From the NCBI GenBank assembly GCA_902795045.1, contig CADBJU010000021.1, forward strand, positions 56,143-120,142: DNA of 64,000 nucleotides. Reading direction: 5' to 3'. Below, piece by piece: positions 26,629 through 56,966 of this stretch (its first letter is position 1; the number at the start of each line of letters is the position of its first letter). The notes beneath the pieces were generated by a model, which had not been told where the DNA came from, searched no databases, and worked only from the letters and a program-made list of their open reading frames with translations. Position numbers and translations under genes: made by a program. This stretch comes from Oscillospiraceae bacterium (lineage in GTDB: Bacteria > Bacillota > Clostridia > Oscillospirales > Oscillospiraceae).

Positions 26629-26767
26629 CAATTGCGAACAAGTTTCGCAATTGAGTTGCTCGCGCTTATCGCACGCGGCAAAGCGTGATATGCCGCGTTT
26701 GGTCGGCGCGAGGCCTCACGAAGCTCGGCTTAGTGTGTTTTTGAGGCGGCAAAGCTGCCTCAAAAAC
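26629..26767 (+). repeat. Multi-hairpin dispersed element, family D copy 1
   Basis: 139 bp. Hairpin 1 is CAATTGCGAA/TTCGCAATTG. The core, CTCGCGCTTATCGCACGCGGC through GCCGCGTTTGGTCGGCGCGAG (read as two words), forms a CTCGCGC/GCGCGAG stem around a GCGGC/GCCGC hairpin. Hairpin 3 is GTTTTTGAGGC/GCCTCAAAAAC. Two other copies are at 47238-47375 (inverted) and 56830-56966. It lies between ptsH and ptsI. Confidence 0.85.
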
Positions 26768-26821
26768 GATTTTATTATTGTGATCTATCGTCTTTCATTA
26801 TTTTGAGAGGAGTTAACCATT

Positions 26822-28501
26822 ATGATTTCCATTCAGGGCAAGGGCGTATCCACCGGTGTCGCCGCAGGTCCCCTTTACTTCTATCAGCGCGCCAAGGCCA
26901 CCATCCACCGCTATGAGATCGTCGATGTCGACGCCGAATGGGCCCGCTTCAAGGCCGCCCAGGCCAAGGCCATCGAGCAGCTGGGCGTGCTGGCCGAGAA
27001 GGCGCGCGAGGAGGCAGGCGACGAGGCCGCCATGCTCTTTGAGACCCATCAGCTTATGGCGGAGGACCTCGACTACGAGGAGGCCATCGAGGAGCTCATC
27101 AAGAACGAAAAGCAGAACGCCGAGTCCGTGGTCACCGATGTTGCCGCCCAGTTTGCGGAGATGTTCGCCTCCATGGACGACAGCTACATGCAGGCCCGTG
27201 CCGCCGACGTGAAGGACGTGTCCACCCGCATCATCGCGATTCTCTCCGGTGTTGTGCAGGGCGGCATCGACTCCGACGTGCCCGTCATCCTCGCAGCCGA
27301 CGATCTCGCCCCCTCCGAGACCGTGCAGCTTGACAAGTCCAAGATCCTGGGCTTCATCACCGCAGGCGGCTCCGGTTCCAGCCACACCGCCATTCTCGCC
27401 CGCACCATGGGCATCCCTGCCATCATCGGCGTGGGCGACCAGCTCAAGCCCGAGTATGAGGGCCGCGAGGTCATCGCCGACGGCGGCACCGGCAACGTGG
27501 TCATCGACCCCGACGAGCCCACCCGCGACCGCCTCATGGCAAAGCGGGCCGAGCTTCTCAAGCGCCAGGAGCTCTTAAATCAGCTCAAGGGCCTGTCCAA
27601 CGAGACCAAGGACGGCAGGACCGTGCGCATCTACTGCAACATCGGAAACCCCGAGGACGTGCACGCGGTGCTCGAAAACGACGGTGCCGGCATCGGCCTG
27701 TTCCGCAGCGAGTTCCTCTACCTCAACTGCGACGATTATCCCACCGAGGATTACCAGTTTGAGGCTTACAAAAAGGTCCTCTCCGACATGGGCGGCAAGG
27801 AGGTCGTCATCCGCACGCTGGATATCGGCGCGGACAAGATGATCGAGTACTTCCAGCTGCCGAAGGAGGAAAACCCCGCCCTCGGCAACCGCGCTCTGCG
27901 CATCTGCCTCAACCGCCCCGAGATCTTCCACACCCAGCTGCGCGCCCTCTACCGCGCCTCCGCCTATGGCCGCCTCTCCATCATGTTCCCGATGGTCACC
28001 TCCGTCTGGGAGGTCAAGGAGGCCAAGAAGATGTGCGAGCAGGTCAAGGCCGAGCTCACCGCGGAGGGCATCCCCTACTCCGATGAGGTGGATGTCGGCA
28101 TCATGATCGAGACCCCCGCCGCCGCCGTCATCAGCGACAGGCTGGCAAAGATCGTCGACTTCTTCTCCATCGGCACCAACGACCTGACCCAGTACACTCT
28201 GGCCTGCGACAGGCAGAACAACGACCTGGGCCGCTTCTTTAACGCCCATCACCCCGCCGTGCTGAGGCTTATCAAGATGGTGGCCGAGAACGCCCACAAG
28301 GCGGGCATCTGGTGCGGCATCTGCGGCGAGCTCGGCGCAGATCTTGAGCTGACGGAGACCTTCCTCTCCATCGGCGTGGACGAGCTGTCCGTCTCCCCGC
28401 GCGCGGTCCTCCCGCTCAGGCAGAAGGTGCGCGAGACCACCGTCGCCGACGTGCAGGAGAAGCTGGTCGCCAATCTCATGAGCGACGAGAACGACATCTG
28501 A
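26822..28501 (+). CDS. ptsI: PTS enzyme I (PEP-protein phosphotransferase)
   Basis: A 559-residue enzyme that takes phosphate from PEP and gives it to HPr. The phosphohistidine is His188 in GGSGSSHTAILARTMGIPAI (active-site swivel domain). The PEP-binding barrel has FRSEFLYL, RTLDIGADK, MFPMVTS, GIMIETPAA and FFSIGTNDLTQYTLACDR. Near the C-terminus, IWCGICGELGAD carries the PEP-domain catalytic cysteine. It follows ptsH after a terminator-like hairpin and a family-D element, with GAGAGGAG before the ATG. Confidence 0.97.
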   Translation: MISIQGKGVSTGVAAGPLYFYQRAKATIHRYEIVDVDAEWARFKAAQAKAIEQLGVLAEKAREEAGDEAAMLFETHQLMAEDLDYEEAIEELIKNEKQNAESVVTDVAAQFAEMFASMDDSYMQARAADVKDVSTRIIAILSGVVQGGIDSDVPVILAADDLAPSETVQLDKSKILGFITAGGSGSSHTAILARTMGIPAIIGVGDQLKPEYEGREVIADGGTGNVVIDPDEPTRDRLMAKRAELLKRQELLNQLKGLSNETKDGRTVRIYCNIGNPEDVHAVLENDGAGIGLFRSEFLYLNCDDYPTEDYQFEAYKKVLSDMGGKEVVIRTLDIGADKMIEYFQLPKEENPALGNRALRICLNRPEIFHTQLRALYRASAYGRLSIMFPMVTSVWEVKEAKKMCEQVKAELTAEGIPYSDEVDVGIMIETPAAAVISDRLAKIVDFFSIGTNDLTQYTLACDRQNNDLGRFFNAHHPAVLRLIKMVAENAHKAGIWCGICGELGADLELTETFLSIGVDELSVSPRAVLPLRQKVRETTVADVQEKLVANLMSDENDI

Positions 28502-28672
28502 CCCTCTCCGCCCCAGTGTTGCGACACTGGGGCACCTCCCCCAGAGGGGGGGAGGCAAGTACACGTTTTATACTCGACTTTCCCCCAGAGGGTGTCAAGT
28601 ATGCGATATATACTTGGCTCCCCCTCTGGGGGAGCTGTCACGTCGGCATGCCGCCGTGACTGAGAGGGCCAA
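28502..28672. repeat. REP-like palindromic element, copy A5
   Basis: GCCCCAGTGTTGCGACACTGGGGC hairpin (in two 12-base halves), CCTCCCCCAGAGGGGGGGAGG, and CTCCCCCTCTGGGGGAG, plus CACGTCGGCATGCCGCCGTG. Non-coding spacer between ptsI and the phosphoesterase. Confidence 0.75.
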
Positions 28673-28674
28673 CT

Positions 28675-29172
28675 ATGAAATTCATTGTCTTCTCCGATTC
28701 CCACGGGGTTTCGGCCAATATGATCCGGGCGGTGCAGGCGGAAAAGCCCGATCTGTGTTTCTATCTCGGCGACGGGGAAAACGACCTGCGGCTGCTACAA
28801 AAACGCTTTCCCCGGCTTGCGGTGTATGCCGTGCGCGGCAACTGCGACATGTTTTCCAGCTCGCCGAAAACGCTCATCTGTGCGGCGGGCGGGCTGAAAA
28901 TCTTCATGACCCATGGGCATCTGTACGGCGTCAAGCATGACCCGATCCTGCGGGATCTCACCGAGGCCGCGCTGGAAGCGGACGCTGACGTGGTGCTCTT
29001 CGGGCACACCCACGAGCCGTTCCGGGATCACACCATGGGGATGCATGTCTTAAACCCCGGCAGTATCGGGCCCACGACGCACCCCAGCTACGGCCTGATC
29101 CGCACCGACGGCGAGCGTGTGGAAACCGAAGTCGTTTTCATGGCGCGGGAAAGCGCTCCCTCCGGCTATTGA
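28675..29172 (+). CDS. YfcE/MJ0936-type metallophosphoesterase
   Basis: A 165-residue phosphodiesterase. Metal-binding motifs are in order: FSDSHG (residues 6-11), YLGDGEND, VRGNCD, MTHGH and LFGHTHEP, all conserved for a dinuclear centre. Small members of this family cleave phosphodiesters such as cyclic nucleotides or model substrates; the physiological substrate is usually unknown. It lies between ptsI and fructokinase and may simply be carried in the operon. Confidence 0.9.
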   Translation: MKFIVFSDSHGVSANMIRAVQAEKPDLCFYLGDGENDLRLLQKRFPRLAVYAVRGNCDMFSSSPKTLICAAGGLKIFMTHGHLYGVKHDPILRDLTEAALEADADVVLFGHTHEPFRDHTMGMHVLNPGSIGPTTHPSYGLIRTDGERVETEVVFMARESAPSGY

Positions 29173-29231
29173 CATCGGGGTCCGGCCGGTTTATGATGGC
29201 TGTACCATAAATGATAGGAAGTTGAACTACT

Positions 29232-30203
29232 ATGGATAACAAGCAATTTGACGTTGTCGCCCTGGGCGAGCTGCTGGTCGATTTCACTCAGAACGGCGTG
29301 AGCGGGCAGGGCAACCTGCTCTTCGAGGCAAACCCCGGCGGCGCGCCCGCAAATGTGCTGGCCATGCTTCGCAAGCTCGGCAAGCGCTGTGCTTTCATCG
29401 GCAAGGTGGGCAAGGACAGCTTCGGCGACATGCTGGCAAGAACCGTCGAGGAGGCCGGGATCGATATCCGCGGCCTTCGGCGGGATGCGGATATCCCCAC
29501 GACGCTCGCGGTGGTGCATACCTTCCCGAACGGTGACCGGGATTTCAGCTTCTACCGCAAGCCCGGCGCGGACATCCTGCTGCGCGCCGACGAGCTGGAT
29601 GAGGCGCTTTTGAAGGACTGCCGCATCTTCCACTTCGGCACCCTGTCCCTGACGGACGAGCCGTGCAAAAGCGCAACCGTGAAGGCCTACGAGCTTGCCA
29701 AAGCAGCCGGAGCCCTCATCTCCTTTGACCCGAACCTCCGCCCGCCGCTCTGGAAATCCGAGGCCGACGCGAAGGCCGCCATCGAGTGGGGCCTCCAGCG
29801 CTGCGACATTCTCAAGATCTCCGACAACGAGATCGAGTTCATGACCGGCGAAACGGACTTTGACAAGGGCGCCGCCATTTTGAAGGAGCGCTTCCCCCAG
29901 ATCCGCCTCCTGAACGTCACCGCGGGCGGGGACGGCAGCTTCTCTTATTACGGCGGCAAACGCGTCTTTGTCCCGGCCTGCAAGCTCGGCGGCGTGATCG
30001 AGACCACCGGCGCGGGCGACACCTTCTGCGCAAGCGTGCTGAACTTTATGCTCGAGCACGGACTGGATGAGCTGACCGAGCAGGACATGACCGCCATGCT
30101 GCGCTTTGCCAACACCGCCGCCTACATCGTCACCACGAAAAAAGGCGCCATCCGCTCCATGCCCGAGCGCGAACAGGTGGAAGAGCTGCTGAAAAGGATT
30201 TGA
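29232..30203 (+). CDS. scrK: Fructokinase (PfkB/ribokinase family)
   Basis: A 323-residue sugar kinase phosphorylating fructose. GELLVDFTQ opens the PfkB fold; NPGGAPANVLAMLRKLGK is the family signature 1 (sugar site); FDPNLRPPLWKS is typical of fructokinases; TTGAGDTFCASVL is signature 2, with the catalytic Asp and anion hole. It closes a sugar operon with amylosucrase, whose by-product is fructose, which makes fructose the expected substrate. GGAAG lies upstream of the ATG. Confidence 0.93.
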   Translation: MDNKQFDVVALGELLVDFTQNGVSGQGNLLFEANPGGAPANVLAMLRKLGKRCAFIGKVGKDSFGDMLARTVEEAGIDIRGLRRDADIPTTLAVVHTFPNGDRDFSFYRKPGADILLRADELDEALLKDCRIFHFGTLSLTDEPCKSATVKAYELAKAAGALISFDPNLRPPLWKSEADAKAAIEWGLQRCDILKISDNEIEFMTGETDFDKGAAILKERFPQIRLLNVTAGGDGSFSYYGGKRVFVPACKLGGVIETTGAGDTFCASVLNFMLEHGLDELTEQDMTAMLRFANTAAYIVTTKKGAIRSMPEREQVEELLKRI

Positions 30204-30235
30204 TCCGGATTTCCCCGAGCCGGGAGGATAGCGCT

Positions 30236-31006
30236 ATGCTTTTTGATCTGTTTAAAAAGCAGGAGAAAATCAACGTGCCCGAGATCACAGACGAGATCGA
30301 GAGCCGCATTTACCCCGCCTTAAAGCCCCTTGGCTTCCGCAAGCATGGCCGGACCCTTCATCGTTTTGTGTCCGGCGACATCTCACAGGTCATCCACTTT
30401 CAAAGCGGCATGCCCTTGAAAGGGATGGGCGGTCTGCTGTGTGTGAATTTGGGGATCCGTATACCCGAATGTGTGGAGCAGACTTTTCATCCAAACCCGG
30501 AAAAGAAGAAATACTATCCGGAATACGACTGCACGCTCCGCTCAAGACTGGGCACCGTTTCCGGGAAGAAAGAGACATGGTATGACCTGCGCCGCGGTGC
30601 GGAAAAGATAGCCGCCGATGTGCTGTACCAGATCAACGGAATCGTCCTCCCGGCTTACGATGTGCTGAGCAGCCGAGAGGGAATCCTCGCCCACCGCAGG
30701 GAATACCCCCTGTTTGACACGATAACGCCGCATCTGATCCTGCTGGATGAGTGTATGATCTACGGGCGCCTGGGCGATCTGGCAAAAGCGAAAGAAAAGT
30801 TTGAGGCTTATTACCGCTCCGCTGTGAGTGAATATGAGGATCAAGCAAAAAACGGCAGGCAGCAGTATCTGAAAAAGGGAGAGCGTGTCGTGTACATGGG
30901 GCAGGATATCACCGCCGAGGAGGATGGTTGGGTTACGCTCTACGGGGCGAGCCACCGGCATATAGAATTCCTTGATCAATTGGCCAAGGATCTGAATCTG
31001 AGATAA
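30236..31006 (+). CDS. DUF4304-like protein
   Basis: A 256-residue cytosolic protein. The segment IYPALKPLGFRKHGRTLHRF with the following VIHFQ strand resembles DUF4304, a family found scattered in bacteria, often near immunity or toxin loci, with no known activity. The C-terminal part is unassigned. The ATG at 30236 follows GGGAGG; the earlier ATG at 30200 overlaps the fructokinase stop but has a poor ribosome site and yields an atypical N-terminus. The gene is followed by a MITE-like repeat. Confidence 0.6.
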   Translation: MLFDLFKKQEKINVPEITDEIESRIYPALKPLGFRKHGRTLHRFVSGDISQVIHFQSGMPLKGMGGLLCVNLGIRIPECVEQTFHPNPEKKKYYPEYDCTLRSRLGTVSGKKETWYDLRRGAEKIAADVLYQINGIVLPAYDVLSSREGILAHRREYPLFDTITPHLILLDECMIYGRLGDLAKAKEKFEAYYRSAVSEYEDQAKNGRQQYLKKGERVVYMGQDITAEEDGWVTLYGASHRHIEFLDQLAKDLNLR

Positions 31007-31061
31007 AGCGTAAAGGGCTGCGGCAAACCACAGTTTTCATGCGTTTCAACCCGTCTTAAGC

Positions 31062-31211
31062 GTAGGGGCCGACGCCCTCGGCGGCCCGAGCGGAACAGTC
31101 TAAATTTGTGCAGCAATCCCCGGCGAAATCGTATGTATATTGCGAAATCGCCGGGGATAAGTGCATTTGTTGAGATTCTTCCGCCGGGCCGCCGAGGGCG
31201 TCGGCCCCTAC
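31062..31211. repeat. MITE-like element with 27-bp terminal inverted repeats, copy B2
   Basis: 150 bp. Both ends are identical 27-bp inverted repeats beginning GTAGGGGCCGACGCCCTCGG. The middle carries its own palindrome TCCCCGGCGA/TCGCCGGGGA and is unrelated to the middle of copy B1. Confidence 0.87.
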
Positions 31212-31266
31212 AATCATATGGATTTATTTACCACAAAGCAGAACTATATTGTCGTTTGTTATAGCC

Positions 31267-32220
31267 CTATTTGTAAAAACCCGCATCAGGGTCAAGCTCC
31301 ACGTTCCGAAACAGGGCCGACACCGCCGCGCGGTAGTCCGGGAGCGTGCGCGACTTGAGGATCGCCTTGCCCGCCCGCTCGGAACCTGGGAACATGCACA
31401 GCTGATAAAACCACAGCTCCTTCATGCGCGAGACCGTAAAGTTCGGCGCGAGACCGGAGGCGAGGTATTCCTCCACAAGCCTGTCGTGGAAATTCTCCAG
31501 CTCCCCCGCCGTCAGCGCCGTGCCGCCGCGCAGCTCACGGAACAGAGCGGGGTTGGTCACCGCGCCGCGGCCCAGCATAGCAGCGTTCAGATTTGGATAG
31601 CGTTCCCTGAGTGCTGCGAGATCGGCCGGGGTGAAGGTGTTCCCGTTATATTCCACCGGGAAGGGACACGAAAGCGCGGCGGCAAAGGCTTCGACATCCG
31701 GTTTGCTTTTGTACATGCCGTCCCGGTCACGCACATGCACGATCAGACGCGAGAGCGGGTACTTTCGGTAAACCTCGAGTATGGCGGGAAACTCATCCGC
31801 GCTGTGCAGGCCGAGCCGCGTTTTCACCGACACCCGCAGCGGGCAGCGGGAGAAGATGTCCGCCAGACAATCGTCGAGCTGTCTGCGATCCCCCAGCATC
31901 CCCGCGCCCTTGTGCTTGGCGACCACCGTGCCGGACGGGCAGCCGATGTTGAAATTGACTTCCTCATATCCGAGATCCTCAAGTTCCCGCGCAACCGCGA
32001 GGAAGGGCTCTGCGGCATTGCACAGAAGCTGCGGCACGAGCTTTATGCCTTCGTTGTTCTCCGGCAGCACATCCCGCAGATTGCCCGCCTTGAAGCGGCC
32101 GGTGCTGTCGGGCGCGATGAAGGGAGCGTAGTAGCGGTCAGCTCCCGGGAAAATCTCGGCATGAATGCGCCGGTAGCCGCTGTAGGTGATCCCTTCCATG
32201 GGGGCAAAGCTCAGTTCCAT
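31267..32220 (-). CDS. tRNA-dihydrouridine synthase
   Basis: A 317-residue FMN enzyme reducing uridines in tRNA. MELSFAPMEGIT is the standard Dus start; PQLLCNAAEPF, then NFNIGCPSGTVVAKHKGAGM with the catalytic cysteine, SVKTRLGL, LIVHVRDRDGM and AMLGRGAVTNP follow in order. ATG 32220 is chosen because AAAGGA lies 9 bases upstream; ATG 32238 would put that site inside the gene. Monocistronic, so the Dus subgroup and target position cannot be set. Confidence 0.92.
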   Translation of the reverse strand: MELSFAPMEGITYSGYRRIHAEIFPGADRYYAPFIAPDSTGRFKAGNLRDVLPENNEGIKLVPQLLCNAAEPFLAVARELEDLGYEEVNFNIGCPSGTVVAKHKGAGMLGDRRQLDDCLADIFSRCPLRVSVKTRLGLHSADEFPAILEVYRKYPLSRLIVHVRDRDGMYKSKPDVEAFAAALSCPFPVEYNGNTFTPADLAALRERYPNLNAAMLGRGAVTNPALFRELRGGTALTAGELENFHDRLVEEYLASGLAPNFTVSRMKELWFYQLCMFPGSERAGKAILKSRTLPDYRAAVSALFRNVELDPDAGFYK

Positions 32221-32368
32221 GTGTCGAATCCTTTCCAATTCATGTGCTTCTCCGTATAATATAAGCGATTTGAGAGGGAAAGAAAAGAATTATTTTTGCC
32301 TATGTAACAATATTTTCACATATTTGCACTATAATAAAAGCTGATTATTCTATGAGGAGGGAGAGGCT

Positions 32369-34225
32369 ATGAAACATCCGGCACTGGCGCGTGTTTTTTC
32401 GGTCGTCGTGACCATACTCGGCCTGCTCCTCCTTTTGTATGGAATACGTGGCTTTGGCAAGGCGGACAGCGAACATGCCGACCGCCTGGCTTATGAAAAG
32501 AAAACCAGCGGCAGGATCGAAAACTATGAGACGCTGCGCGCTGAATACTTAAACAGCGCCGACTATCAGGAGACCATGGACGCCCTCAAGCGCTTTCTGG
32601 ACGAACACGAGAAGGCGGCGGCCAAGCACAAGACCGACACCGCCCTCTACAGCGCTACAAAGGGCGGTCTCAAGATGGGCGAGGATATGATCGTTACCAT
32701 TCGCGCCCAGATGAACGAGATCAAAGAGCAGCTTCGAAACGCAGCTTCCCGCAAGGCATTTCTGGAGGGGCTCCTGACCGAGCTCATCGCCTCGCAGAAG
32801 AGCAATCTGCCCTGGCTGGAGGCGCTGTCAGCGCAGGCCGCGCAGTACGCGGTCGAAAGCTATAGCCAGGGTGCGAAGGTCAAGCTCGTCTCTTCTGAGC
32901 TTCGTGCCCTGATGGAGGACGAGCCGACGCCGGCAAGCGTCGCCGCCGCGCTCTACACCCCGCCCGAGCCGCCCTCGGTGCCGATGCTGCCCCTGTTGCC
33001 CGATATGGCCGGCACGCCCGTCGACATGATGCAGGCTGCCTACGGCGCGGCGATGGATTCGTTTCTGGGTGCCGCCGCCGACTATGAGCAGGCCATGACG
33101 GACTACGCCCAGAATCTCCAGGATTCCTACAACGCCTCGGCCCAACAGTTCATGGATCAGTTCAGCGGCGGTTACAGCGATGTGGCCGACGTACTCACCG
33201 ACGCCGCTGCCAGCGCCGAATACAAGCTCGCCCACAAGCTCTGGGAAGAGGAGTGTGAGATGGTAAAGGGCCAGCTTGATCTGCATGAGGCGCGCCGCTA
33301 TATCCCCAGGCTGAGTTCGGCACTCGCCGCGCTGATCCGGCAGGGCGACAGCTATTTTGCTTCCGTCACGCTCGAGACCGGTGGCATCTATCCCGCCATA
33401 GCCGAGCTTATGGCGATGGCCGATTCGACCGGCGCGCGCATCGACGCTCACCTGGACACGGATCTCAAGAGCCTGCCCAATGCCGAATTTCTCGCCCTCA
33501 CGGATGAGATCGAGCAGCTGTTTGACATGATCACCGACGGTTTCATCGTGGTTGCCCAGAACCTGGACAATCCCGCCTCGCTGATCGCGGAGCTGATGGA
33601 GAGGCTGCACATCACCGAGGCGCTGGTGGAGCTGCTCGAGCCGATGCTGGAGAAGGCCGAACAGCAGATGCAGGCCGCTTTGGAGGAGCTTTGGTATCAA
33701 ATGGGCGAGGCGGAGAAGGACACACTCAAGCTGGAAGCCGAGAAGCTCGGTCTTGACAAGGAGGCCGTGCTGCTTTCCAAGCGCACGCTGGACGCCGACG
33801 CGCTCAAGGATCTTAGAAGCCGCTACATCTCGTCCCGGCAGCTGCTGATGAATATTCCGGAGGTCAGGGCAATGACCGAGGACGAGAGCGAGCTTGCCGA
33901 GAATGCGCGCTCCTGGCTCGGTACATATGCCCAGGAGACCGAGCGGCTCTATCAGGGCAAGCGGCTCATCAATATCCTGGCCATCATCAGCGGCGTGATG
34001 GCGGTACTCGGCATCCCCGCCGCCTTTGAGCTGCTGAAAAGCCGCTTCTTCCTCATCGTGCCGGTGCTGCTGTGCATGGTGAGCGCGGCGGGAGCGGAAG
34101 CGCTGAACCTGTACCTCGGCGAGGGACAGCACTACTTCGGGCTGTTCACCGCGATCTTCGCCTTCATCCAGCTTCTGGTCGTGCTGCCCCGGGTGAAGAA
34201 GCCCGGGTACATACCGCAGCATTAA
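32369..34225 (+). CDS. Uncharacterised membrane-anchored coiled-coil protein
   Basis: A 618-residue protein. There is one transmembrane helix at residues 8-26, then a long helical extracytoplasmic or cytoplasmic region (about 35-520) rich in Ala, Glu and Lys with heptad-like stretches. A proline-rich break (TPPEPPSVPMLPLLPDM) lies near residue 195. Three hydrophobic helices (about 533-610) close the protein, which ends in a basic tail. The architecture recalls septation-ring or MscK-like scaffold proteins, but no family is recognised. It is the first of four plus-strand envelope genes with a D,D-carboxypeptidase and VanZ protein. Confidence 0.6.
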   Translation: MKHPALARVFSVVVTILGLLLLLYGIRGFGKADSEHADRLAYEKKTSGRIENYETLRAEYLNSADYQETMDALKRFLDEHEKAAAKHKTDTALYSATKGGLKMGEDMIVTIRAQMNEIKEQLRNAASRKAFLEGLLTELIASQKSNLPWLEALSAQAAQYAVESYSQGAKVKLVSSELRALMEDEPTPASVAAALYTPPEPPSVPMLPLLPDMAGTPVDMMQAAYGAAMDSFLGAAADYEQAMTDYAQNLQDSYNASAQQFMDQFSGGYSDVADVLTDAAASAEYKLAHKLWEEECEMVKGQLDLHEARRYIPRLSSALAALIRQGDSYFASVTLETGGIYPAIAELMAMADSTGARIDAHLDTDLKSLPNAEFLALTDEIEQLFDMITDGFIVVAQNLDNPASLIAELMERLHITEALVELLEPMLEKAEQQMQAALEELWYQMGEAEKDTLKLEAEKLGLDKEAVLLSKRTLDADALKDLRSRYISSRQLLMNIPEVRAMTEDESELAENARSWLGTYAQETERLYQGKRLINILAIISGVMAVLGIPAAFELLKSRFFLIVPVLLCMVSAAGAEALNLYLGEGQHYFGLFTAIFAFIQLLVVLPRVKKPGYIPQH

Positions 34226-34250
34226 TTTTCCTTTTCGGAGGAACTCTTTC

Positions 34251-36354: not shown

Positions 36355-36358
36355 TGGA

Positions 36359-41790: not shown

Positions 41791-42118
41791 GTAAGGGACC
41801 GGACGTGCATATACACGTATAGAGCCCCGGAAAAAACAGGGCCCGGCCTCAATGGATTTTAAGAGTCTATATAGCAAAGAACACTTTTACTACTCTTATT
41901 GACCATTTCACAGATTTGTATGCTTTTACAAAACCATAAAATTTGAGCTCCCATGAAACCGTATCGAAAGAACGGTTCCCAGCTCAATCAATAAGGCAAC
42001 AGAAGTTGCCGCCGCATTCCGCGGTTCTTCGGCATCCGACCCGGCTGTCCGTATGGCCTTGGCCCTGAAAGGGCGGTCGATATCTTGCTTCGGATAAACT
42101 CGGTATATCCAATTGAGA
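41791..42118 (-). ncRNA. Structured 5' leader or small RNA upstream of potA (class unknown)
   Basis: Transcribed from the promoter at 42125-42153, this non-coding segment shows many hairpins on the minus strand: a closing pair GGCATC/GATGCC, an adjacent CGACC/GGTCG, hairpins GGATA/TATCC, GCCCT-TTC-AGGGC, CCGC/GCGG and GGCAAC-TTCT-GTTGCC, and an outer GAGCT/AGCTC enclosing AACCGT/ACGGTT (41945-41985). It could be a riboswitch-like sensor with the attenuator as expression platform, or a separate small RNA ending near 41940. It matches no riboswitch consensus that I can recall. Confidence 0.55.
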
Positions 42119-47237: not shown

Positions 47238-47375
47238 GTTATTGAGGGAGCTTTGCTTCCTCAATAACACCATAGGTGAGCAAAGCGAACCCTCGCGCCG
47301 ACCAAGCGCGGCGTATCACGCCTCGCCGTGCGCGATAAGCGCGAGTCAATCAAATGCGAACCGTGTTCGCATTTG
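47238..47375 (-). repeat. Multi-hairpin dispersed element, family D copy 2 (inverted)
   Basis: 138 bp on the minus strand. Hairpin 1 is CAAATGCGAAC/GTTCGCATTTG, the core CTCGCGCTTATCGC is shared with copies 1 and 3, and hairpin 3 is GTTATTGAGG/CCTCAATAAC. It starts 4 bases past the end of the dehydratase gene. Confidence 0.85.
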
Positions 47376-47379
47376 ACGG

Positions 47380-48978
47380 TTAGTATGCCTCATTGTCGGG
47401 GATGTTTTCAAGCGACGGGTCGAGCGGCTCCTCGCGCATGACGGTGCGCATGTAGTTGTTGACCTGGTCGCGGATGGCCTGGCGGGTGAAGACGCGCGGG
47501 TCACACAGATCGTGAGAAACCCACATGACATGGATGCCGCGCGCGCGGCCCTGCTCTTCAAACATGCCGTGCATGCCGGTGAGAGCCTTGCAGGACATAT
47601 GCTCCCACATCATGACCACGTCCGCGTTCATCTTCTCGCACAGATCCCACAGATCGTCCAGCAGCACCTTGTAGCCGCCGTGGGTGTGGTTGCGCATGAT
47701 CATCTCCATGTTCAGCATCGCCATGTCGCGGTAGGCCTGCTCGCGGTTCTCGGGCGTGTCGGTGTCGGCGATCATGTCGGTGTTGATAACAGACAGCATA
47801 TCGGTCAGCGGCACGACGCCCCAGCACTGGACCATCCAGTAGAGCATGTCGATGACGTACTGCGGCTGTACGCCCCAGACGATCGCGCGGTGGCGGTATT
47901 CCTTGGCGTACATGCGCTTGGCCTTGTAGCCCTGCTCGGCAAGCTTTAAGAGCTTGTGGTCGATCTTCACAAAGTTGGGATCGCGGCCGGAGTTGCCCAT
48001 ATAGTTGGTGTCGTTATAGAGGGAGAAGGCCGCGCCGAAGAACTGGGGATAGGGCGTGGAGTTGATCTCCATCTGGGCGATGCGGCAGCGGGTGGCGTCG
48101 TTGACGCGCTTTGCGGCGGCAAAGTACACGTCCCAGTCCCACTTCTCGCCGGTGTGCTTTTCGACGAAGGCGATGGCGTTCTTGATCTCCTGGGCGGCGT
48201 AGTCCATGACGTCCGGCTCCTTGTGACGCAGAGGCGTGGCGAGCTGGAAGGTGGGAATGCCGTACTCGCGGTCGAGGCGCTTGGCGATGATGCCGTTGCC
48301 CATGAGGGAGCCGTCGCAGGTGGTGTTGTTCTGCACCGCGCAGCAGCCCAGGACACAGAAATCGTCCTCGATGGAGATGCCGGCCTCGGCCTCGGGCATG
48401 GGACAGACATCGCCGGGGATGCCGTACTGCTGGGCGATGTCCAGATAGTGCATGACGTTGAACTGATGGAAGATGTTGGAGGCAAACATGGTGGGCACCT
48501 CGCGCAGGATGGTGTGCACCTTGTCGCGGTCAAAGCCCATCATAAAGGTGACCATGGAGTTTTCGTCGGTGATGACGCACTTGTCGGAATAGGCCTTGTC
48601 GTTGCCGACACGGCGGTCGCCGCGGAAGCAGTTGGCGATGGCCTGGGTCACGTCGGCGATGACGAAGTTGAAGGAGGTGTGGGCGATGCGCAGCGCCTCG
48701 CCGCGAAGGCCGATGGTGAACTTGTCCATGCCGTGGGGCACGAAGAGATAGCTCATCATCCAGCGGTAGCGGAAGAAGCCCTTGACGTTGCGCGGGACCA
48801 TGATGAAGCGGCCCAGCACGCTCAACAGGTACAGCCAGCGGGTGTAGTCGTAGAAGGTGTCCTTTACACCGCGCCACTCGCGCCGCGCGCGGACCTTCAG
48901 CTTTTCGTCGTAGATTTTCCCGGGGGACTGTTCACCCGCGCGGGGGACGGGATTGATGATCTTTTCGACAGTCTTCAT
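47380..48978 (-). CDS. 2-hydroxyacyl-CoA dehydratase-family subunit (larger)
   Basis: A 532-residue protein of the HgdB/FldC/BcrC iron-sulfur dehydratase superfamily. PMPEAEAGISIEDDFCVLGC and CDGSLMGNGII supply cysteine ligands for a [4Fe-4S] cluster in the N-terminal domain, and VMMWEHMSCKALTG with VSHDLCDPRVF matches the C-terminal domain. It is longer than characterised subunits (380-480), with an N-terminal extension of about 100 residues. It is cotranscribed with a second subunit. The activating ATPase and CoA-transferase are absent from the window, so the substrate is unknown. Confidence 0.8.
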   Translation of the reverse strand: MKTVEKIINPVPRAGEQSPGKIYDEKLKVRARREWRGVKDTFYDYTRWLYLLSVLGRFIMVPRNVKGFFRYRWMMSYLFVPHGMDKFTIGLRGEALRIAHTSFNFVIADVTQAIANCFRGDRRVGNDKAYSDKCVITDENSMVTFMMGFDRDKVHTILREVPTMFASNIFHQFNVMHYLDIAQQYGIPGDVCPMPEAEAGISIEDDFCVLGCCAVQNNTTCDGSLMGNGIIAKRLDREYGIPTFQLATPLRHKEPDVMDYAAQEIKNAIAFVEKHTGEKWDWDVYFAAAKRVNDATRCRIAQMEINSTPYPQFFGAAFSLYNDTNYMGNSGRDPNFVKIDHKLLKLAEQGYKAKRMYAKEYRHRAIVWGVQPQYVIDMLYWMVQCWGVVPLTDMLSVINTDMIADTDTPENREQAYRDMAMLNMEMIMRNHTHGGYKVLLDDLWDLCEKMNADVVMMWEHMSCKALTGMHGMFEEQGRARGIHVMWVSHDLCDPRVFTRQAIRDQVNNYMRTVMREEPLDPSLENIPDNEAY

Positions 48979-50433: not shown

Positions 50434-50514
50434 TGTCATGGCTTCACGTCAGCGAAGGATCTTTCTCGGTTCATGATGAGGCAGAAGATCCTTCGCTGCG
50501 CTCAGGATGACATG
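50434..50514. repeat. Family-C palindromic element, copy C2
   Basis: Carries CAGCGAAGGATCTTTCTCGG with GAAGATCCTTCGCTGCGCTC and ends CAGGATGACA. It lies in the 360-bp gap between the dehydratase and lipoprotein genes. No gene is seen there. Confidence 0.75.
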
Positions 50515-50533
50515 ACCGAAAGCAGAGGGGCCT

Positions 50534-52204
50534 TTATGCGATCTGTCCGACAAAATGCGGGACAACGACGCTGCTCTCCCAGCCGGTGATAAGCTGGGTA
50601 AACTGCTGCTCGGTCAGGTACTCGTCGTAGTCGCGCGGCTCATAGTTGTAGCCGTCGGTCTGGTGATAGCAGCCGTCCCGCTCGCTGCCTTCATACCAGG
50701 TCATGGCGGACTCGATGGGGGTAAGGCTGCTGCCGTAAAGACGGTTGATAACAAAGATACTGTTGCCGGCGCCGTTGGAGCCCTCGTTGAGGATCGAACC
50801 GTCGGAGCGCAGGAAGTAACGGCTGCGGGCGCGTGTGCAGGCCAGCTGCACCGGCTGTCCGTTTTCGAGGGTGTAGAGGTCGAAGATCACGATCTCGGTG
50901 TACGTCTCGTCGTTGATGCCCGCGATAATGAGCTCCTGCACGCCGTCGCCGTTAATGTCCTGCAGGGCGTAGCCCACATGAGGCGCGTAACTGATATACT
51001 CGGAGAGGTTGTTGTTGAAGGCGTACTCCGACGTTGTATTTCCAGTGGTGTAGGCGCGGTAGTAGGCGGAGATCACGGAGCCGTAGGCCGTCAGGGTATC
51101 GTCTACATAGATCATGGCGGGTGCGGTCACGGCGCTGCCGCCGGGGCCGTCAAAACGGGCCTGTACGCTCCACCCGTCAACGGAGACGGGCACATTGCTC
51201 ACGCCCAGGGTATCTTCCGGCAGAACCTGAATCTGAAGGCCGGGGTTTGCGGCCATGGCCTGTTCGACGGTGTAGCTCTGTCCCTGGGGGCTGGTGAGCA
51301 GCCAGGTAAGGGATGTTGCGTTATTGGCGTGGGCAATGAACCAGGCCTTGCCGCCCACGGTCAGGGATTCGCTGGTGGGGTTCTTGGTGATGGTCACGGG
51401 GCCGTTTGCCTGCGGCTGGGCAGTAAACTGCGGCTGGGCGTTGGACTGGGGAGTGACCACGGGCTGCGCGGGCTGGACCTCCATCTGTGTCCAGCTGAGG
51501 GTCAGTGTCCCCTGCTCCTGGCCCTGGAAACGGTTTCTCTCCATGTTGCTGTAGTCGTCCATGGATATTTCGGTGCCGTTTTCATTAAAATAACGGACCG
51601 ACGAGCCGCCGAGATTGTCGTAAAGCTCGTCCTTTGAGGCAAGGGTCCTGAGTTCGATCCGGCCGTTTTCGAGGCAGAAGCTGTCAAGGCCGGTCCAGTA
51701 ATGGGCCGCGCCGTCGCGCATCATGTCCTCGCAGACGTAGGTATAGCGCCCGCTCACGCTGTCACGGTAGCAGGTGATGGTGTCCTTGATGATGTCGGGC
51801 CAGGCCTCGCCCTCGCGGGTATTGTCCGGGCAGCGGCTTAGCCCGGTGAAGCTTTCGTTGACCTCCCAGACATTTACCCAGGTGAACAGACCGCTGCCCT
51901 GGAGGGAAGCGGTCAGGACCTCAAGCCTGCCGTTGCGGTCCAGGTCGGTGATGGCGGAAAACCAGGTCTCGTTGCTGAGATCCGGCTGCCAGACGGCGCG
52001 GCTCCTTTCGATCAGGGCGCGCTGATCCGCCTCGGACATGGGGGCCGGGGTGGGTGCCGGGGTCGGGGTCGCGGCATAGATATCTACCGGTGTCGGCGTG
52101 GGGCTGGGGGCAGGCGCGGGCGCGGCCTGCTTTGCCGAGCAGGCGCAGAGCGCCAGGCAGCACAGAAGCAGGACCGGAAGCAATTTTAATAAAGAGTGTT
52201 TCAT
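50534..52204 (-). CDS. Secreted lipoprotein with proline-rich linker
   Basis: A 556-residue lipoprotein. Signal peptide with lipobox ALCACS (Cys21 or Cys23), then a Pro/Ala/Thr spacer (residues 28-55). Calcium-loop-like repeats ITDLDRNGRLEVLTAS and DINGDGVQELIIAGI resemble FG-GAP/VCBS or EF-like repeats. The middle (about 260-370) holds an Ig-like segment with ESLTVGGKAWFIAHANNATS. Related proteins are surface lipoproteins of gut Clostridia with no known function. Monocistronic. Confidence 0.75.
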   Translation of the reverse strand: MKHSLLKLLPVLLLCCLALCACSAKQAAPAPAPSPTPTPVDIYAATPTPAPTPAPMSEADQRALIERSRAVWQPDLSNETWFSAITDLDRNGRLEVLTASLQGSGLFTWVNVWEVNESFTGLSRCPDNTREGEAWPDIIKDTITCYRDSVSGRYTYVCEDMMRDGAAHYWTGLDSFCLENGRIELRTLASKDELYDNLGGSSVRYFNENGTEISMDDYSNMERNRFQGQEQGTLTLSWTQMEVQPAQPVVTPQSNAQPQFTAQPQANGPVTITKNPTSESLTVGGKAWFIAHANNATSLTWLLTSPQGQSYTVEQAMAANPGLQIQVLPEDTLGVSNVPVSVDGWSVQARFDGPGGSAVTAPAMIYVDDTLTAYGSVISAYYRAYTTGNTTSEYAFNNNLSEYISYAPHVGYALQDINGDGVQELIIAGINDETYTEIVIFDLYTLENGQPVQLACTRARSRYFLRSDGSILNEGSNGAGNSIFVINRLYGSSLTPIESAMTWYEGSERDGCYHQTDGYNYEPRDYDEYLTEQQFTQLITGWESSVVVPHFVGQIA

Positions 52205-52255
52205 CGTAAACCTCCTGTGGTTTTCTGTTCAGCTCTAAGACGTTTTGATCTTGCA

Positions 52256-52286
52256 AATGTTCCGGGGAGAAGCTCCCCGGAACATT
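52256..52286 (-). terminator. Terminator after the diguanylate cyclase gene
   Basis: Stem AATGTTCCGGGGA / TCCCCGGAACATT; T-rich on both sides. Serves the minus-strand GGDEF gene. Confidence 0.75.
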
Positions 52287-52298
52287 GTTTTTCTTATG

Positions 52299-53711
52299 TT
52301 ATGTATTGTGCGTTTCCGCGTCGCGGTGCTGTTCGGCCTTGGCCTCATACATGTTGTGGTCGGCTTCCTCGAACATCTGCCGAAGCTTCTCGCCGCGTAT
52401 ATCCGGCAGGTAGGCGTGGCCTACCGAAATGCTGATGCCGCGGCTCTCCTGCTCCGCGCGAAAGGCGGCAAGCGCCGACCGGCACTGCTCCTCCGTGTCA
52501 CCGAGGCGGATCGCCACGAATTCGTCTCCGCCGGTGCGGAAGACATTTTTGCCCGTGCTGTCCCCGAAGGTTTTCAGGATGCATGATGCCGCCTCACGCA
52601 GGAGCTTGTCGCCGGAGACGTGGCCGAGCTTGTCGTTTGTTACCTTGAGGCCGTCCACGTCCATGGAGTAAATTGTGAGGGAGGTATGCTCCGGCGTGTC
52701 CAGGAGCTTCTTGAGAAACTCCTCATAGGCCAGGCGGTTAGGAAGACCCGTCAGGGCGTCGGTATGCGAAAGCTCCCGCAGGTCTTCTTCCAGCTTGTTG
52801 CGGTGCTCCATCAGGTCGTCGTATGACTCGGCCAGACGCCTCAGCTCGGAAAAGCCGTATTCCTTCGGGATGCTCTCGCCCTTCTGCACACGCTCCACGC
52901 TCTTTTCCAGCGGGATCAGCAGCTTTGTAAACAGCAGCACAATCATCACGAGCATCGTGCCGATGATCAGCGCCATCAGGCCCCACTGCTGCAGGCGGTA
53001 CAGGGACAGGACATTGGAAAGCCGCTGGATGCTTGCCACGTTCTCGTCGTTGACGGTGCTGACGGCAATGCTCAGGTTGCGCTGCACATCGCCGCGTGTG
53101 GACTGGTAATCAGAATCCGCAAGCAGCTCATGGGCTTTGCCGATCTTTGCCCCATCCGGCAGCTTCTCCAGCTCCTGCGGAAGCTCCAGTGTCTGAAGCG
53201 CAGGCCAGGCACTCAGGTCGGCCCCGCGGGACTGCGCCGCAAGGCGCATGGCTGTCATCTCCGTCTGCGCGCGCCCCATCACCGCATCGGCCGAGGCGTT
53301 CAGAAAGCCCGCCGCGCTGCTTTCGGGAGCGGCGTCAGCGCTCAGGTGGGCATGATGGACAGCCCCCTGCTCGGCATCAGAGCCGCTGCGGACGAGCTCC
53401 TGCATAGCGTTGAAGCTGCCCTGCACCCTGCCGAGCTGCTCAAAATAGGCATTGAGTGCGCCCTCGTCCCCGTCGTTGACGTACTGCACGGCCGTGCCGG
53501 TAAGCTGATCCGTCAACTGGGAAATGCCGCTGGACATGCCGGACAGAGCGAAGTTTCGCTGTGTAAACTGGGAGATTACCTGCCCCATGTTGTTGATGCG
53601 CACGGTATTGAACACGATCAGCGCGTGCATGATCAGCATCGCGATGACCGCGGGAATGATCATGCGCTTTGCGGAGATCGCAGGCTTTTTTCTGTTGTTC
53701 GTATTCTCCAT
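52299..53711 (-). CDS. Membrane diguanylate cyclase (GGDEF)
   Basis: A 470-residue signalling protein. A helix at residues 15-35, an extracytoplasmic four-helix-bundle sensor (about 40-225), a second helix (about 230-255), a HAMP-like linker (PLEKSVERVQKGE) and a C-terminal GGDEF domain (about 310-465) with DALTGLPNR and intact RTGGDEFVAIR. It should make c-di-GMP from GTP. No inhibitory RxxD five residues before GGDEF is obvious. It counterbalances the EAL protein at 7.8 kb. Confidence 0.9.
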   Translation of the reverse strand: MENTNNRKKPAISAKRMIIPAVIAMLIMHALIVFNTVRINNMGQVISQFTQRNFALSGMSSGISQLTDQLTGTAVQYVNDGDEGALNAYFEQLGRVQGSFNAMQELVRSGSDAEQGAVHHAHLSADAAPESSAAGFLNASADAVMGRAQTEMTAMRLAAQSRGADLSAWPALQTLELPQELEKLPDGAKIGKAHELLADSDYQSTRGDVQRNLSIAVSTVNDENVASIQRLSNVLSLYRLQQWGLMALIIGTMLVMIVLLFTKLLIPLEKSVERVQKGESIPKEYGFSELRRLAESYDDLMEHRNKLEEDLRELSHTDALTGLPNRLAYEEFLKKLLDTPEHTSLTIYSMDVDGLKVTNDKLGHVSGDKLLREAASCILKTFGDSTGKNVFRTGGDEFVAIRLGDTEEQCRSALAAFRAEQESRGISISVGHAYLPDIRGEKLRQMFEEADHNMYEAKAEQHRDAETHNT

Positions 53712-53981
53712 TAGCTCCCTCCATTCCGGCGTCCAGCGCGCGGGAGTGGCTTCTGTTTTTTCTTCTATAATTTCCTTATTTTAATAATGATATCATATTT
53801 TGCGGAACAGTACAAGTGTTTCCCCGAAAAAATGTGAAATAATGGTATTTCCCCTGTACCTTTCCTTCGCTGTTTACATATTCTATTTGTCAAATATAGA
53901 CAGATTGTCCATACATTATGCGTCACATAATCTTTCTGAAATAAGGGTGGGAATAAAGTTCAAAAAACTTAAACAAAAGAC

Positions 53982-54010
53982 TTGATTTTTTTGTTGCATT
54001 GTACTAATAT
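53982..54010 (+). promoter_or_regulatory. Promoter of cstA
   Basis: TTGATT (53982-53987), 17 bp, TAATAT (54005-54010). The AT-rich 53785-53980 upstream region holds no gene. Confidence 0.7.
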
Positions 54011-54076
54011 GTGTCACAGGGATATGAACATTCTGTTAATACCCAGTACAACCATTATTAATAGGAGGAAGAAAAA

Positions 54077-55546
54077 ATGGTTAGCTTTTTCCTGTGCCTG
54101 GCCGTTCTGATCTGCGGCTACCTGTTCTACGGTAAGTACGTAGACAGCACCTTCAACCCCGACGACCGTGAGACCCCTGCCGTCGCCATCAACGACGGTG
54201 TCGACTACGTCGTCCTGCCCCAGTGGAAGCTGTTCATGATCCAGCTTCTGAACATTGCCGGCCTCGGCCCCATCTTCGGCGCCCTGTCCGGTGCCATGTG
54301 GGGACCTGTGGTCTTCCTGTGGATCACCTTCGGCACCGTGTTTGCCGGTGCTGTGCATGACTACTTCGCCGGCATGCTGTCCGAGCGCAACAACGGCGCC
54401 TCCATCTCCGAGGTCACCGGCATCTACCTCGGACCCACGATGAAGAACGTCATGCGCGTCTTCTCCGTCATCCTGCTGATCATGGTCGGCACCGTGTTCG
54501 CAGTCGGCCCCGCCGGTCTGATCGTCACCCTGACCACCAACAGCGGCCTGAGCGGCATCCTGACCAACAAGGTCTTCTGGCTCGCCATCATCATCGCCTA
54601 CTACTTCACCGCGACCTTCATCTCCATCGACAAGATCATCGGCAAGATCTACCCCGTGTTCGGCATCTGCCTGATCATCATGGCTATCGGCGTCTGCTTC
54701 GGCACCCTGACCAGCGGCGAGAAGATCCCCGAAATCTTCTCCAACTTCCGCAACATGCACCCCAAGGGAACCCCCATCTGGGCCTTCATGTTCATCACCG
54801 TTGCCTGCGGCGCTATCTCCGGCTTCCACGCCACCCAGTCTCCTCTGATGGCCCGCTGCCTCAAGAGCGAGCGTCAGGGCCACTTCGTGTTCTACGGCGC
54901 CATGGTCGCCGAGGGCATCATCGCTCTGATCTGGGCTGCTGCCGGTGTCACCCTGCTGGGTGTCGACAAGCTGTCTGAGATGGGCGGCGGCAACAACAAC
55001 ACCGTCTACACCATCTGCACCATGACCATGGGCAAGATCGGCATCATCCTTGCCATGCTCGGCGTTATCGCCTGCCCCATCACCTCCGGCGACACCGCCT
55101 TCCGTTCCGCCCGTCTGACCTTGGCCGACTGGCTCAAGCTCGATCAGGACAGCGCCAAGAACCGTCTGATCCTCTGCATCCCCGTGCTCGGCATCGGCGC
55201 CATCCTCGGCTTCGGCAACGCCCTCGGCAAGATCGACTACCAGATCATCTGGCGTTACTTCTCCTGGTCCAACCAGACCCTCGCCATGATCGTCCTCTGG
55301 GCCGGCGCCATGTACCTTGCCCAGAACAAGCGCAACTACTGGATCTGCGCTGTCCCCGCCACCTTCATGAGCGCTGTCTCCATGACCTACTTCATGATGG
55401 CCGGCGAGTGCATGGGCCTCATCGCCTTCTTCAAGAACAACGCCAAGGTTGGCTACCCTGTCGGCCTCATCTTCGCCGTCGCCTGCCTGGCCCTGTTCCT
55501 CTCGAAGGCTAAGAACGCCGCTTCCAAGGCTGCAAAGGTCGCGTGA
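54077..55546 (+). CDS. cstA: CstA-type carbon starvation/peptide or pyruvate transporter
   Basis: A 489-residue inner-membrane protein of about 12-13 helices. QLLNIAGLGPIFGALSGAMWGP, GAVHDYFAGMLSERNNGASI (both CstA signatures, quoted in part) and TPIWAFMFITVACGAISGFHATQSPLMARC are diagnostic. It is shorter than E. coli CstA (701) and matches the compact Firmicutes form. The family imports peptides or pyruvate under carbon limitation. GGAGG lies 8 bases before the ATG. Its codon usage is strongly biased to C-ending codons, as for groEL, which suggests high expression. Confidence 0.93.
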   Translation: MVSFFLCLAVLICGYLFYGKYVDSTFNPDDRETPAVAINDGVDYVVLPQWKLFMIQLLNIAGLGPIFGALSGAMWGPVVFLWITFGTVFAGAVHDYFAGMLSERNNGASISEVTGIYLGPTMKNVMRVFSVILLIMVGTVFAVGPAGLIVTLTTNSGLSGILTNKVFWLAIIIAYYFTATFISIDKIIGKIYPVFGICLIIMAIGVCFGTLTSGEKIPEIFSNFRNMHPKGTPIWAFMFITVACGAISGFHATQSPLMARCLKSERQGHFVFYGAMVAEGIIALIWAAAGVTLLGVDKLSEMGGGNNNTVYTICTMTMGKIGIILAMLGVIACPITSGDTAFRSARLTLADWLKLDQDSAKNRLILCIPVLGIGAILGFGNALGKIDYQIIWRYFSWSNQTLAMIVLWAGAMYLAQNKRNYWICAVPATFMSAVSMTYFMMAGECMGLIAFFKNNAKVGYPVGLIFAVACLALFLSKAKNAASKAAKVA

Positions 55547-55584
55547 TCCACGGCCCTTGCGTAACGGTAAAACATAAGCAACAC

Positions 55585-55613
55585 AAGGGGCTGTGAACAT
55601 TCACAGCCCCTTA
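55585..55613 (+). terminator. Terminator after cstA
   Basis: Stem AGGGGCTGTGA / TCACAGCCCCT with a 4-nt loop and a modest T-rich tail. Confidence 0.75.
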
Positions 55614-55658
55614 TCTCTTGCCATCGTATAGTCCTTTTTGTCATACTGTGCTCTTTTT

Positions 55659-55736
55659 GTCAATCTGAGCGAAGCGAAGAATCTTCTCATTTGTCCCTCA
55701 ATGCGGGAAAAATCCTTCGCTTCGCTCAGGATGACA
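55659..55736. repeat. Family-C palindromic element, copy C3
   Basis: TGTCAATCTGAGCGAAGCGA ... TTCGCTTCGCTCAGGATGAC: near-perfect outer inverted repeat, with GAATCTTC/GAAAAATCC inner parts. Confidence 0.8.
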
Positions 55737-55811
55737 GGCCCGGGCCTTTTCTTTTTCGCATATATTTGATATAATCTCAACGCAAATGCACAATCAGGAG
55801 GAAACCGACAC

Positions 55812-56828
55812 ATGATCATCACCCCCTCACCTATCGGCAGCAGGACACTGACGCCGGAGGTTTTGAAGGCTGACAGAAGGGCCAGCCGCAAGTTCGGGCC
55901 CTGCGGCGTCGGCAAAGAGGCGCTGTACATGGGCACCAATTACATTGACCGCTGCTTCTACATTCCCTGGAAAGAGGTCAAACGCGTATTCAAGCGCGTG
56001 GCCATGAGCCAGGGCGCCTATACCGGGCACGGCGCGTTCGGAGCGCTTGCGTATCTGGTAGTACAGTTTGGCAACGGCAAGGAGAAGCAGAGCCGCTTTC
56101 GCCATGAGGCCGATGTGGACCGGCTGCTGGCGGTCGTCGAGAAGGAGCACCCCGGCATCCCCACCCATTCCGCCAAGGCCGAGCGCAAACTGGCCGACGC
56201 AGAAGCCAGGGAGGAAAACCGCTATCTCAAGGAGCTCTCCCCCGAGGCCGAGGACGCCGTGCATGAGATCAGTCAGGCCAAGGTCTATCTTGAACAGCGC
56301 CCCTCGCTGTCCAATGTACTCGCCGCCGCGGCAAAGCAGAAGCGCATTGTGGACAACATCAAGCCCAGCTATCGGATCGCGGGCATTGTGATGGCGGTCG
56401 TGAGCATCCTTGCGGTGATCTACGGTGTCTGGGCGCTGACACAGCATCGCACGGCGGCGACCTATTTCCTGCTGGGCGGCGCGGCGCTGTTCTTCTTCGC
56501 CCTGTCGGCCAACATGCTGCCGAACAAGTGGAACAGCAAAAAGCGCGCGCAGGAAGACTGGGACACGGCCCTGCGTGAGATGCGGGAATATCTAGCTGAA
56601 AAGCCGGACTTCCCTGTGCCCGCGCAGTACGCGCACCCCATCGTGCTCGAGCGTATGATCCGCGCGCTGCGTGAGGGCAAGGCCAAAACCACGGCCCAGG
56701 CCTATACCACCATGAAGAAGGAGCTCAAAGCCCTCAACAACACCGTCAAGGTCTCTCAGGAGGAATATGACGAGGTCGTGAAAATCAAGCCGCTGTTTCT
56801 GGTATGCGAATATAAAGACGAGGTTTAG
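55812..56828 (+). CDS. Uncharacterised protein with PH-like N-terminus and two membrane helices
   Basis: A 338-residue protein. The first 110 residues contain YIDRCFYIPWKEVKRVFKR and ALAYLVVQFGNGKEKQSRFR, a pattern of strands like a bacterial PH domain. A helical segment follows, then two membrane helices (about 193-212 and 217-236) and a basic C-terminal domain. No family is recognised with certainty. A family-D repeat begins one base after its stop, and the MoxR/VWA pair follows in the same direction. Confidence 0.6.
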   Translation: MIITPSPIGSRTLTPEVLKADRRASRKFGPCGVGKEALYMGTNYIDRCFYIPWKEVKRVFKRVAMSQGAYTGHGAFGALAYLVVQFGNGKEKQSRFRHEADVDRLLAVVEKEHPGIPTHSAKAERKLADAEAREENRYLKELSPEAEDAVHEISQAKVYLEQRPSLSNVLAAAAKQKRIVDNIKPSYRIAGIVMAVVSILAVIYGVWALTQHRTAATYFLLGGAALFFFALSANMLPNKWNSKKRAQEDWDTALREMREYLAEKPDFPVPAQYAHPIVLERMIRALREGKAKTTAQAYTTMKKELKALNNTVKVSQEEYDEVVKIKPLFLVCEYKDEV

Positions 56829-56829
56829 T

Positions 56830-56966
56830 CAGGTGCGAACAATGTTCGCACCTGAGTACTCGCGCTTATCGCACGCGGCGAGGCGTGATACGCCGCGTTT
56901 GGTCGGCGCGAGGGTTCGCTTTGCTCACCTAAGGTGTTATTGAGGAAGCAAAGCTCCCTCAATAAC
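56830..56966 (+). repeat. Multi-hairpin dispersed element, family D copy 3
   Basis: 137 bp. Hairpin 1 is CAGGTGCGAAC/GTTCGCACCTG, the core CTCGCGCTTATCGCACGCGG is identical to copy 1, and hairpin 3 is GTTATTGAGG/CCTCAATAAC. It lies between a stop codon and the MoxR gene. Confidence 0.85.

Follow-up and report, generated by a model that had tools for sequence, protein, structure and literature searches.

Three copies of a small multi-hairpin sequence in a 64-kb window (the whole 64,000-nt stretch analyzed here, from contig CADBJU010000021.1 of the Oscillospiraceae bacterium assembly GCA_902795045.1) belong to a new family resembling miniature inverted-repeat transposable elements (MITEs). The interior of the element is an array of exchangeable hairpins, four or more, packed into ~140-200 nt. 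Covariation between copies defines the fold, the element is mobile, it has inverted-repeat ends, which in some copies are flanked by exact target duplications, and inserted copies diverge little compared with their surroundings. We consider it probable that the family consists of miniature non-autonomous transposons with a structured hairpin array, and that the folded RNA of the inserted copies is kept by selection.

Copy number and distribution

A covariance model finds the three copies at the places given by a first-pass annotation of the window, and the search for further copies that the annotation had proposed uncovered a dispersed family, at 43 places in the genome of the window (hereafter the host genome) and in relatives. 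BLASTN with copy 1 returns 47 pieces in the host genome, which is 92% complete. The covariance model, built from 29 of its copies, also gives 47 matches; three copies with inserts are matched twice each, and one weak match in antisense was discarded, which leaves 43 places. With the host genome counted, the element is present by BLASTN in 32 of 61 genomes of the genus, and by the covariance model in 12 of 150 genomes of the family, in 9 of 106 genera.

The core pattern occurs in at least 108 stretches of named GTDB genomes; among the matches listed, nearly all are titled uncultured Oscillospiraceae, Ruminococcaceae, Clostridiales, or Clostridia, and many are from the rumen. These named genomes have the titles of metagenome-assembled genomes or uncultured isolates, in which repeats are liable to misassembly, but copy 3 reads consistently across three genomes. 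A core-pattern match in a Brevinematales contig (L147) was taken as chance, because the covariance model gives no match there, and viral contigs contain no exact core-pattern match. The G+C content of the element is 0.51-0.63 (105 matches, other genomes), and it thus lacks the A+T richness that is usual in MITEs, although not part of their definition.

Fold and strand

The common fold comprises four hairpins (Table 1). In the 29 host-genome copies 96.3% of 1442 cells are paired, and 23 of the 50 base pairs show double changes, against a shuffle mean of 8.6 and with none of 500 shuffles reaching the observed number. The second alignment holds 105 copies (matches at E <= 1e-15 from 100 loci outside the host genome); it was fitted to the model and is therefore biased towards it, and some of its rows are orthologous or related, a kinship that the shuffles ignore. 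In this alignment 96.0% of 5182 cells are paired and 39 of the 50 pairs are doubly changed, in 545 cells, which was again reached by 0 of 500 shuffles, while slid-partner controls are 36-44% paired. The arm pairs pointed out by the first-pass annotation (CAATT/AATTG, CAAAT/ATTTG, and CAGGT/ACCTG, as well as GTTTTT/AAAAAC vs GTTATT/AATAAC) are all verified in the window copies. Where it had placed a conserved core between two hairpins, covariation resolves four hairpins in the core, including the small third one.

Folded singly, copies 1 to 3 reach z values of -7.0, -5.9, and -7.6 relative to dinucleotide shuffles, with no equal among 200 shuffles. In the minimum-energy fold of copy 2, however, hairpin 2 is paired in a different register, and hairpin 3 is unformed in that of copy 1, so that the case for a common fold depends on comparing the copies with one another.

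Hairpin 2 carries, inside its covarying stems, a conserved box with wobbles and two 1x1 mismatches. Of the 105 copies, 90 have CTTATCGC and 97 have TTGGTCGG, and the wobbles are kept almost throughout (UG in 104, UG in 103, and GU in 104). The first mismatch is U/C in 93 copies (the rest being seven C/C, four G/C, which could pair, and one CC/C) and the second is C/U in 104; the UC/UC internal loop of hairpin 3 is kept in 92. We infer that the plus strand is the folded strand, because the wobbles of hairpin 2 become non-pairing A.C on the other strand. The calculated fold energy of copy 1 is -73.5 kcal/mol for the plus strand and -64.5 for the minus strand.

The same box bears on the possible, although less likely, alternative of a purely selfish MITE, in which the hairpins serve transposition only, as folded ends or in a single-stranded intermediate, and have no host function. 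In such an element the paired changes would partly come from template-switch correction of imperfect palindromes. Repair of this kind perfects palindromes and would erase the two mismatches, and their conservation in 93 and 104 of the 105 copies therefore speaks against it.

Ends, target duplications, and empty sites

Full-length copies measure ~170-205 nt and are bounded by inverted repeats NAG[T/G]C[A/G]ATTGCGAAA, the right end, past hairpin 4, mirroring the left. The 137-139 bp unit described by the first-pass annotation is thus a real core but not the whole element, since full-length relatives extend to the right inverted repeat; that it is a transposon bounded by inverted repeats had gone unrecognized. 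A right inverted repeat with at most 2 mismatches in 12 positions was found in 22 of 170 copies (in one of them, L240, it is the first hairpin of an adjacent copy), compared with 0.6 per shuffled pass.

Across the collected loci there are 30 inverted-repeat pairs spaced 150-400 nt with no more than four mismatches in all, and eight of these (L055, L331, L044, L073, L389, L036, L124, and L343), with 172-202 nt between the ends, have exact target duplications of 11-12 nt. Direct repeats of at least 10 nt lie near 11 of the 170 copies, where shuffled partners give 0-1; six are at canonical ends, those of L071, L079, L093, and L223 are away from them, and that of L186 lies farther out. A direct-repeat scan anchored at hairpin 4 showed nothing clear, because the true end lies farther out, and the divergence between filled and empty sites was too great for the duplication to be read directly from their alignment. 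A recognizable right end is kept in only 4 of the 41 host-genome copies examined (of 43), and most of these copies therefore look old. The inverted-repeat ends together with the 11-12-nt duplications define the element as MITE-like and built of hairpin modules.

The gap between the HPr gene and ptsI that holds copy 1 is empty in eight of nine relatives aligned on both flanks, the close relative G037 among them; in the ninth, G027, the gap (at L243) contains a different hairpin repeat, TCATCCTGAGCG...CGCTCAGAATGAC. Copy 3 sits at the same site in G027 and G037 and is absent from the eight more distant of the ten relatives whose two flanks align. A non-mobile structured RNA family, such as a riboswitch, an attenuator, or a small RNA gene duplicated together with its genes, would share the RNA-grade covariation and the plus-strand-specific box, but different genes adjoin the three window copies, and an Rfam match above threshold is lacking. 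The empty sites and the terminal repeats with target duplications refute it as a full explanation, and we regard it as very improbable.

The first-pass annotation had also hinted at a REP-type Y1 transposase. Elements of the REP/BIME type, moved by a Y1 (RAYT/IS200-605) transposase, do have hairpins, intergenic locations, and high copy numbers, and Y1_Tnp matches occur in 8 of 13 genomes. They are absent from the host genome (G000), G027, G051, G035, and G212, however, and a strongly conserved flanking tetranucleotide was not seen. IS200/605-type enzymes are not known to make target-site duplications, whereas full-length copies of the present element carry them; this largely refutes the idea, which was rejected on this ground and for want of Y1_Tnp in the host genome, and to which we assign a very low probability.

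Divergence after insertion

To what extent copies change once inserted was read from 14 loci chosen from 29 orthologous pairs, one pair each; left out were further pairs of the same loci, more distant pairs, and the pairs L310/L028 and L145/L173. Differences amount to 16 in 1998 positions (0.80%) within the element and to 745 in 12926 (5.8%) in the flanks, the element being the less divergent at all 14 loci (Fisher p ~3e-29, with sites treated as independent). In the 30 nt immediately to the left there are 23 differences in 416 positions, and in the 50 nt immediately to the right 25 in 695, 16 of them in L157/L009. An in-place double change was found in hairpin 1 of L083/L137. The low divergence suggests that selection acts on the folded copy after its insertion and is unlike the free decay expected of a purely selfish element. 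Together with the covariation in the 29 host-genome and 105 other copies and the conserved wobbles and mismatches, it bears out the statement of the first-pass annotation that selection maintains the folded form.

Gene context

By simple open reading frame (ORF) calls, 134 of 167 copies are flanked by genes on both sides; 11 of the others are at contig edges and 22 inside a possibly spurious ORF. Of 178 copies examined, 110 have a qualifying ORF upstream, and in 45 of these the left end lies within 2 nt of its stop codon. This position after genes would suit a spreading cassette that carries an intrinsic transcription terminator. Around the strong last hairpin, however, T residues dominate ahead of the stem and A residues behind it, whichever strand is read (GTTTTTG...CAAAAAC), which is the reverse of an intrinsic terminator, and copy 1 is located in the gap between the HPr gene and ptsI; a terminator cassette is accordingly an improbable account.

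Observations that weigh against selection on a mobile folded RNA

Several results do not sit easily with a transposon whose folded RNA is kept by selection. On the side of mobility, 22 of the 30 inverted-repeat pairs have no duplication, which is absent or decayed in most copies, and an autonomous relative did not come to light. Inverted pairs of element ends spaced 700-3000 nt are missing from 12 genomes with one mismatch allowed and from 102 genomes of the genus by exact search. Four such pairs appear in the collected loci when up to four mismatches are allowed, all without duplication; one of the four, L349, appears from its ORFs to span host genes. Wider-spaced pairs of ends exist in G007 (6.6 kb apart) and G212 (~5 kb apart). 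Transposases of PF01609 (DDE_Tnp_1) are encoded at nine loci in 7 of 13 genomes, the host genome having none, and the element ends are missing from all nine; the best candidate, L325, lacks a duplication and has three mismatches in either end. The absence of an autonomous relative is weak evidence, because the search patterns were strict and the genomes are incomplete.

On the side of selection, the 134 copies with genes on both sides show flanking orientations ++ 46, -- 27, +- 38, and -+ 23. Occurrence in both orientations to genes is odd for a strictly cis-acting RNA, and with the unrelated gene contexts it fits a purely selfish MITE, as do the eight exact duplications and the free swapping, expansion, and loss of modules described below. 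The excluded pair L145/L173 shows the opposite trend, with 5 of 125 element positions changed against 12 of 701 in the flanks. At the single site shared by L028 (host genome) and L310 (G037), the element differs at 37 of 137 positions (27%) and the flanks at ~4%, which looks like the replacement of one copy by another. In 20 orthologous pairs, a set that includes distant pairs and in which the base pairs are those of one member's minimum-energy fold, the stem changes comprise 11 that break a pair, 11 double changes that keep it, and 10 single changes that keep it, beside 34 changes in loops. The first-pass annotation had looked to relatives for compensation of arm changes: most stem changes keep pairing and its claim is unrefuted, but 11 of 32 are uncompensated.

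Possible function

The strand-specific box and the constraint on inserted copies together point most readily to a function as structured RNA at gene ends. The hairpin array is probably transcribed. In the mechanism that we propose, a transposase acting in trans would move the element, and insertion would create the 11-12-nt target duplication, often leaving the left end 0-2 nt from a stop codon. A copy next to a gene may then be co-transcribed with it, and selection would act on the folded plus-strand RNA or, less likely, on folded single-stranded DNA. The RNA could determine processing or stability, or bind a protein, at the ends of genes and in the gaps within operons. A more far-reaching version strikes us as doubtful: every insertion would append a folded, strand-specific RNA tag, bearing the wobble/mismatch box and read by a dedicated protein or RNA, to the end of a host transcript, and host selection would keep the inserted tags almost unchanged, giving a post-transcriptional regulon in uncultured gut Oscillospiraceae.

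Small dispersed repeats, BOX and ERIC elements among them, have been known for decades, and whether their folds benefit the host still lacks a clear answer. The many copies, clear ends, empty and orthologous sites, and dense covariation of the present family make selection on the fold separable from mere copying. The family is also a marker and a candidate RNA-binding site for uncultured rumen and gut bacteria.

Modules and derivatives

The hairpins are variable in number and kind. Among the host-genome copies, L060-L062 have a 45-nt hairpin within hairpin 3, and L063-L065 and L070 have a multi-hairpin insert of ~200 nt within hairpin 2, which is possibly a nested element. The insert is nearly whole at four places in the host genome, namely those four copies; elsewhere the matches to it are weaker or cover only part of it. 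The module in hairpin 2 was also seen at L327, L334, L336, and L349, and gap lengths of L063 compared with L034/L110 suggest one genomic site with and without it. L067-L069 have a different first hairpin, L067-L070 have extra hairpins on the 3' side, L100 has lost hairpin 3, and derivatives consisting of hairpin 4 alone occur. A 34-nt palindrome at L345:1501-1534, made of two inverted ends only and flanked by a 13-nt exact repeat, is the smallest derivative seen that is likely to be mobile.

Distant relatives occur in the same bacterial family (G080, G130, G207, and G191). They are like the element in the variable first hairpin and in the strong terminal hairpin with its GCAAAGC tip; a GGATTTGA tail is also common to the loci of G130, G207, and G191. 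They differ in that the listed loci are without the CUUAUCGC/UUGGUCGG box of hairpin 2, and they score 28-49 bits among the matches listed. Six distant loci of other genera (L213, L224, L215, L225, L216, and L217) have the GCAAAGC-tipped terminal hairpin in common while their first and second hairpins differ, and the GGATTTGA tail is present in four of the six.

Relation to known families

The first-pass annotation knew of no named family, and this stands: Rfam 15 has no match to the element above threshold, and a literature search found no description, a weak negative since most subscription journals lie outside its coverage. At the gathering score the element is unmatched in the window, and at E up to 1 four loci show only sub-threshold matches over elements. 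The best of these, 33.5 of 80 bits for BjrC80, is in the distant relative L213, on the opposite strand.

MIC231-type cassettes and IS231/IS4-family elements have target duplications of ~10-12 bp, and the 11-12-nt duplications of the present family are like those of IS4/IS231-derived MITEs. Unlike in these, no PF01609 gene was found in the host genome, and the ends are unshared by the nine loci from 13 genomes. ERIC and Correia elements have short (TA) target duplications; the exact 11-12-nt duplications and the several independent tandem hairpins set the present family apart from them. Compared by description, not by sequence, it resembles both in its MITE anatomy and mostly intergenic location, and a review states that their transcripts fold and can alter mRNA decay through RNase E or RNase III sites (PMC10969869). 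Pneumococcal BOX elements are likewise modular, small, interspersed, and tightly folded, have inverted-repeat ends with reported target duplications, and are transcribed as 5' or 3' extensions of operons (PMC3049150). They differ, again by description and not by sequence, in host group and in modules, and the box of wobbles and mismatches and the double changes were counted in the present family.

Copies and neighboring features in the window

The limits of the three copies by the covariance model, and the hairpins of copy 1, are collected in Table 1.

Table 1. Copies of the hairpin element in the 64-kb window and the component hairpins of copy 1.
Feature	Positions	Strand	Description
Copy 1	26628-26767	+	Between HPr gene (26318-26578) and ptsI (26822-28501); right inverted repeat not recognizable
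Copy 1, hairpin 1	26628-26654	+	5' arm is the counterpart of the left terminal inverted repeat
Copy 1, hairpin 2	26659-26712	+	8-bp stem, box CUUAUCGC / UUGGUCGG, 8-bp covarying stem, loop
Copy 1, hairpin 3	26713-26729	+	Small stem GCC-UC-NN-NNN-NN-UC-GGC; covarying pairs across copies
Copy 1, hairpin 4	26737-26767	+	GUUUUUGAGGCGGC AAA GCUGCCUCAAAAAC; conserved GCAAAGC tip
Copy 2	47238-47376	-	Left end 3 nt past the stop codon of ORF 47380-48978 (-)
Copy 3	56829-56966	+	Immediately 3' of the TAG stop codon of ORF 55812-56828

A separate hairpin, GATACGGCTGCC...GACAGCCGTATC, lies at 26594-26622 in the gap between the HPr gene and ptsI. In the listed relatives of the same gene order its outer arms are changed and the hairpin is kept; it is likely an attenuator or terminator. 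Two matches to known RNA families were noticed outside the element. A 6S RNA gene match at L226:2378-2584 (63.4 bits, gathering 46.4), the sole hit above a gathering score in the Rfam comparison at E up to 1, lies ~1 kb from a host-genome copy. In the window, positions 42029-42079 on the minus strand match RF02440 (SpF59_sRNA) at 66.5 bits against a gathering score of 37.2; the family takes its name from Streptococcus, and the genome here is Oscillospiraceae-like.

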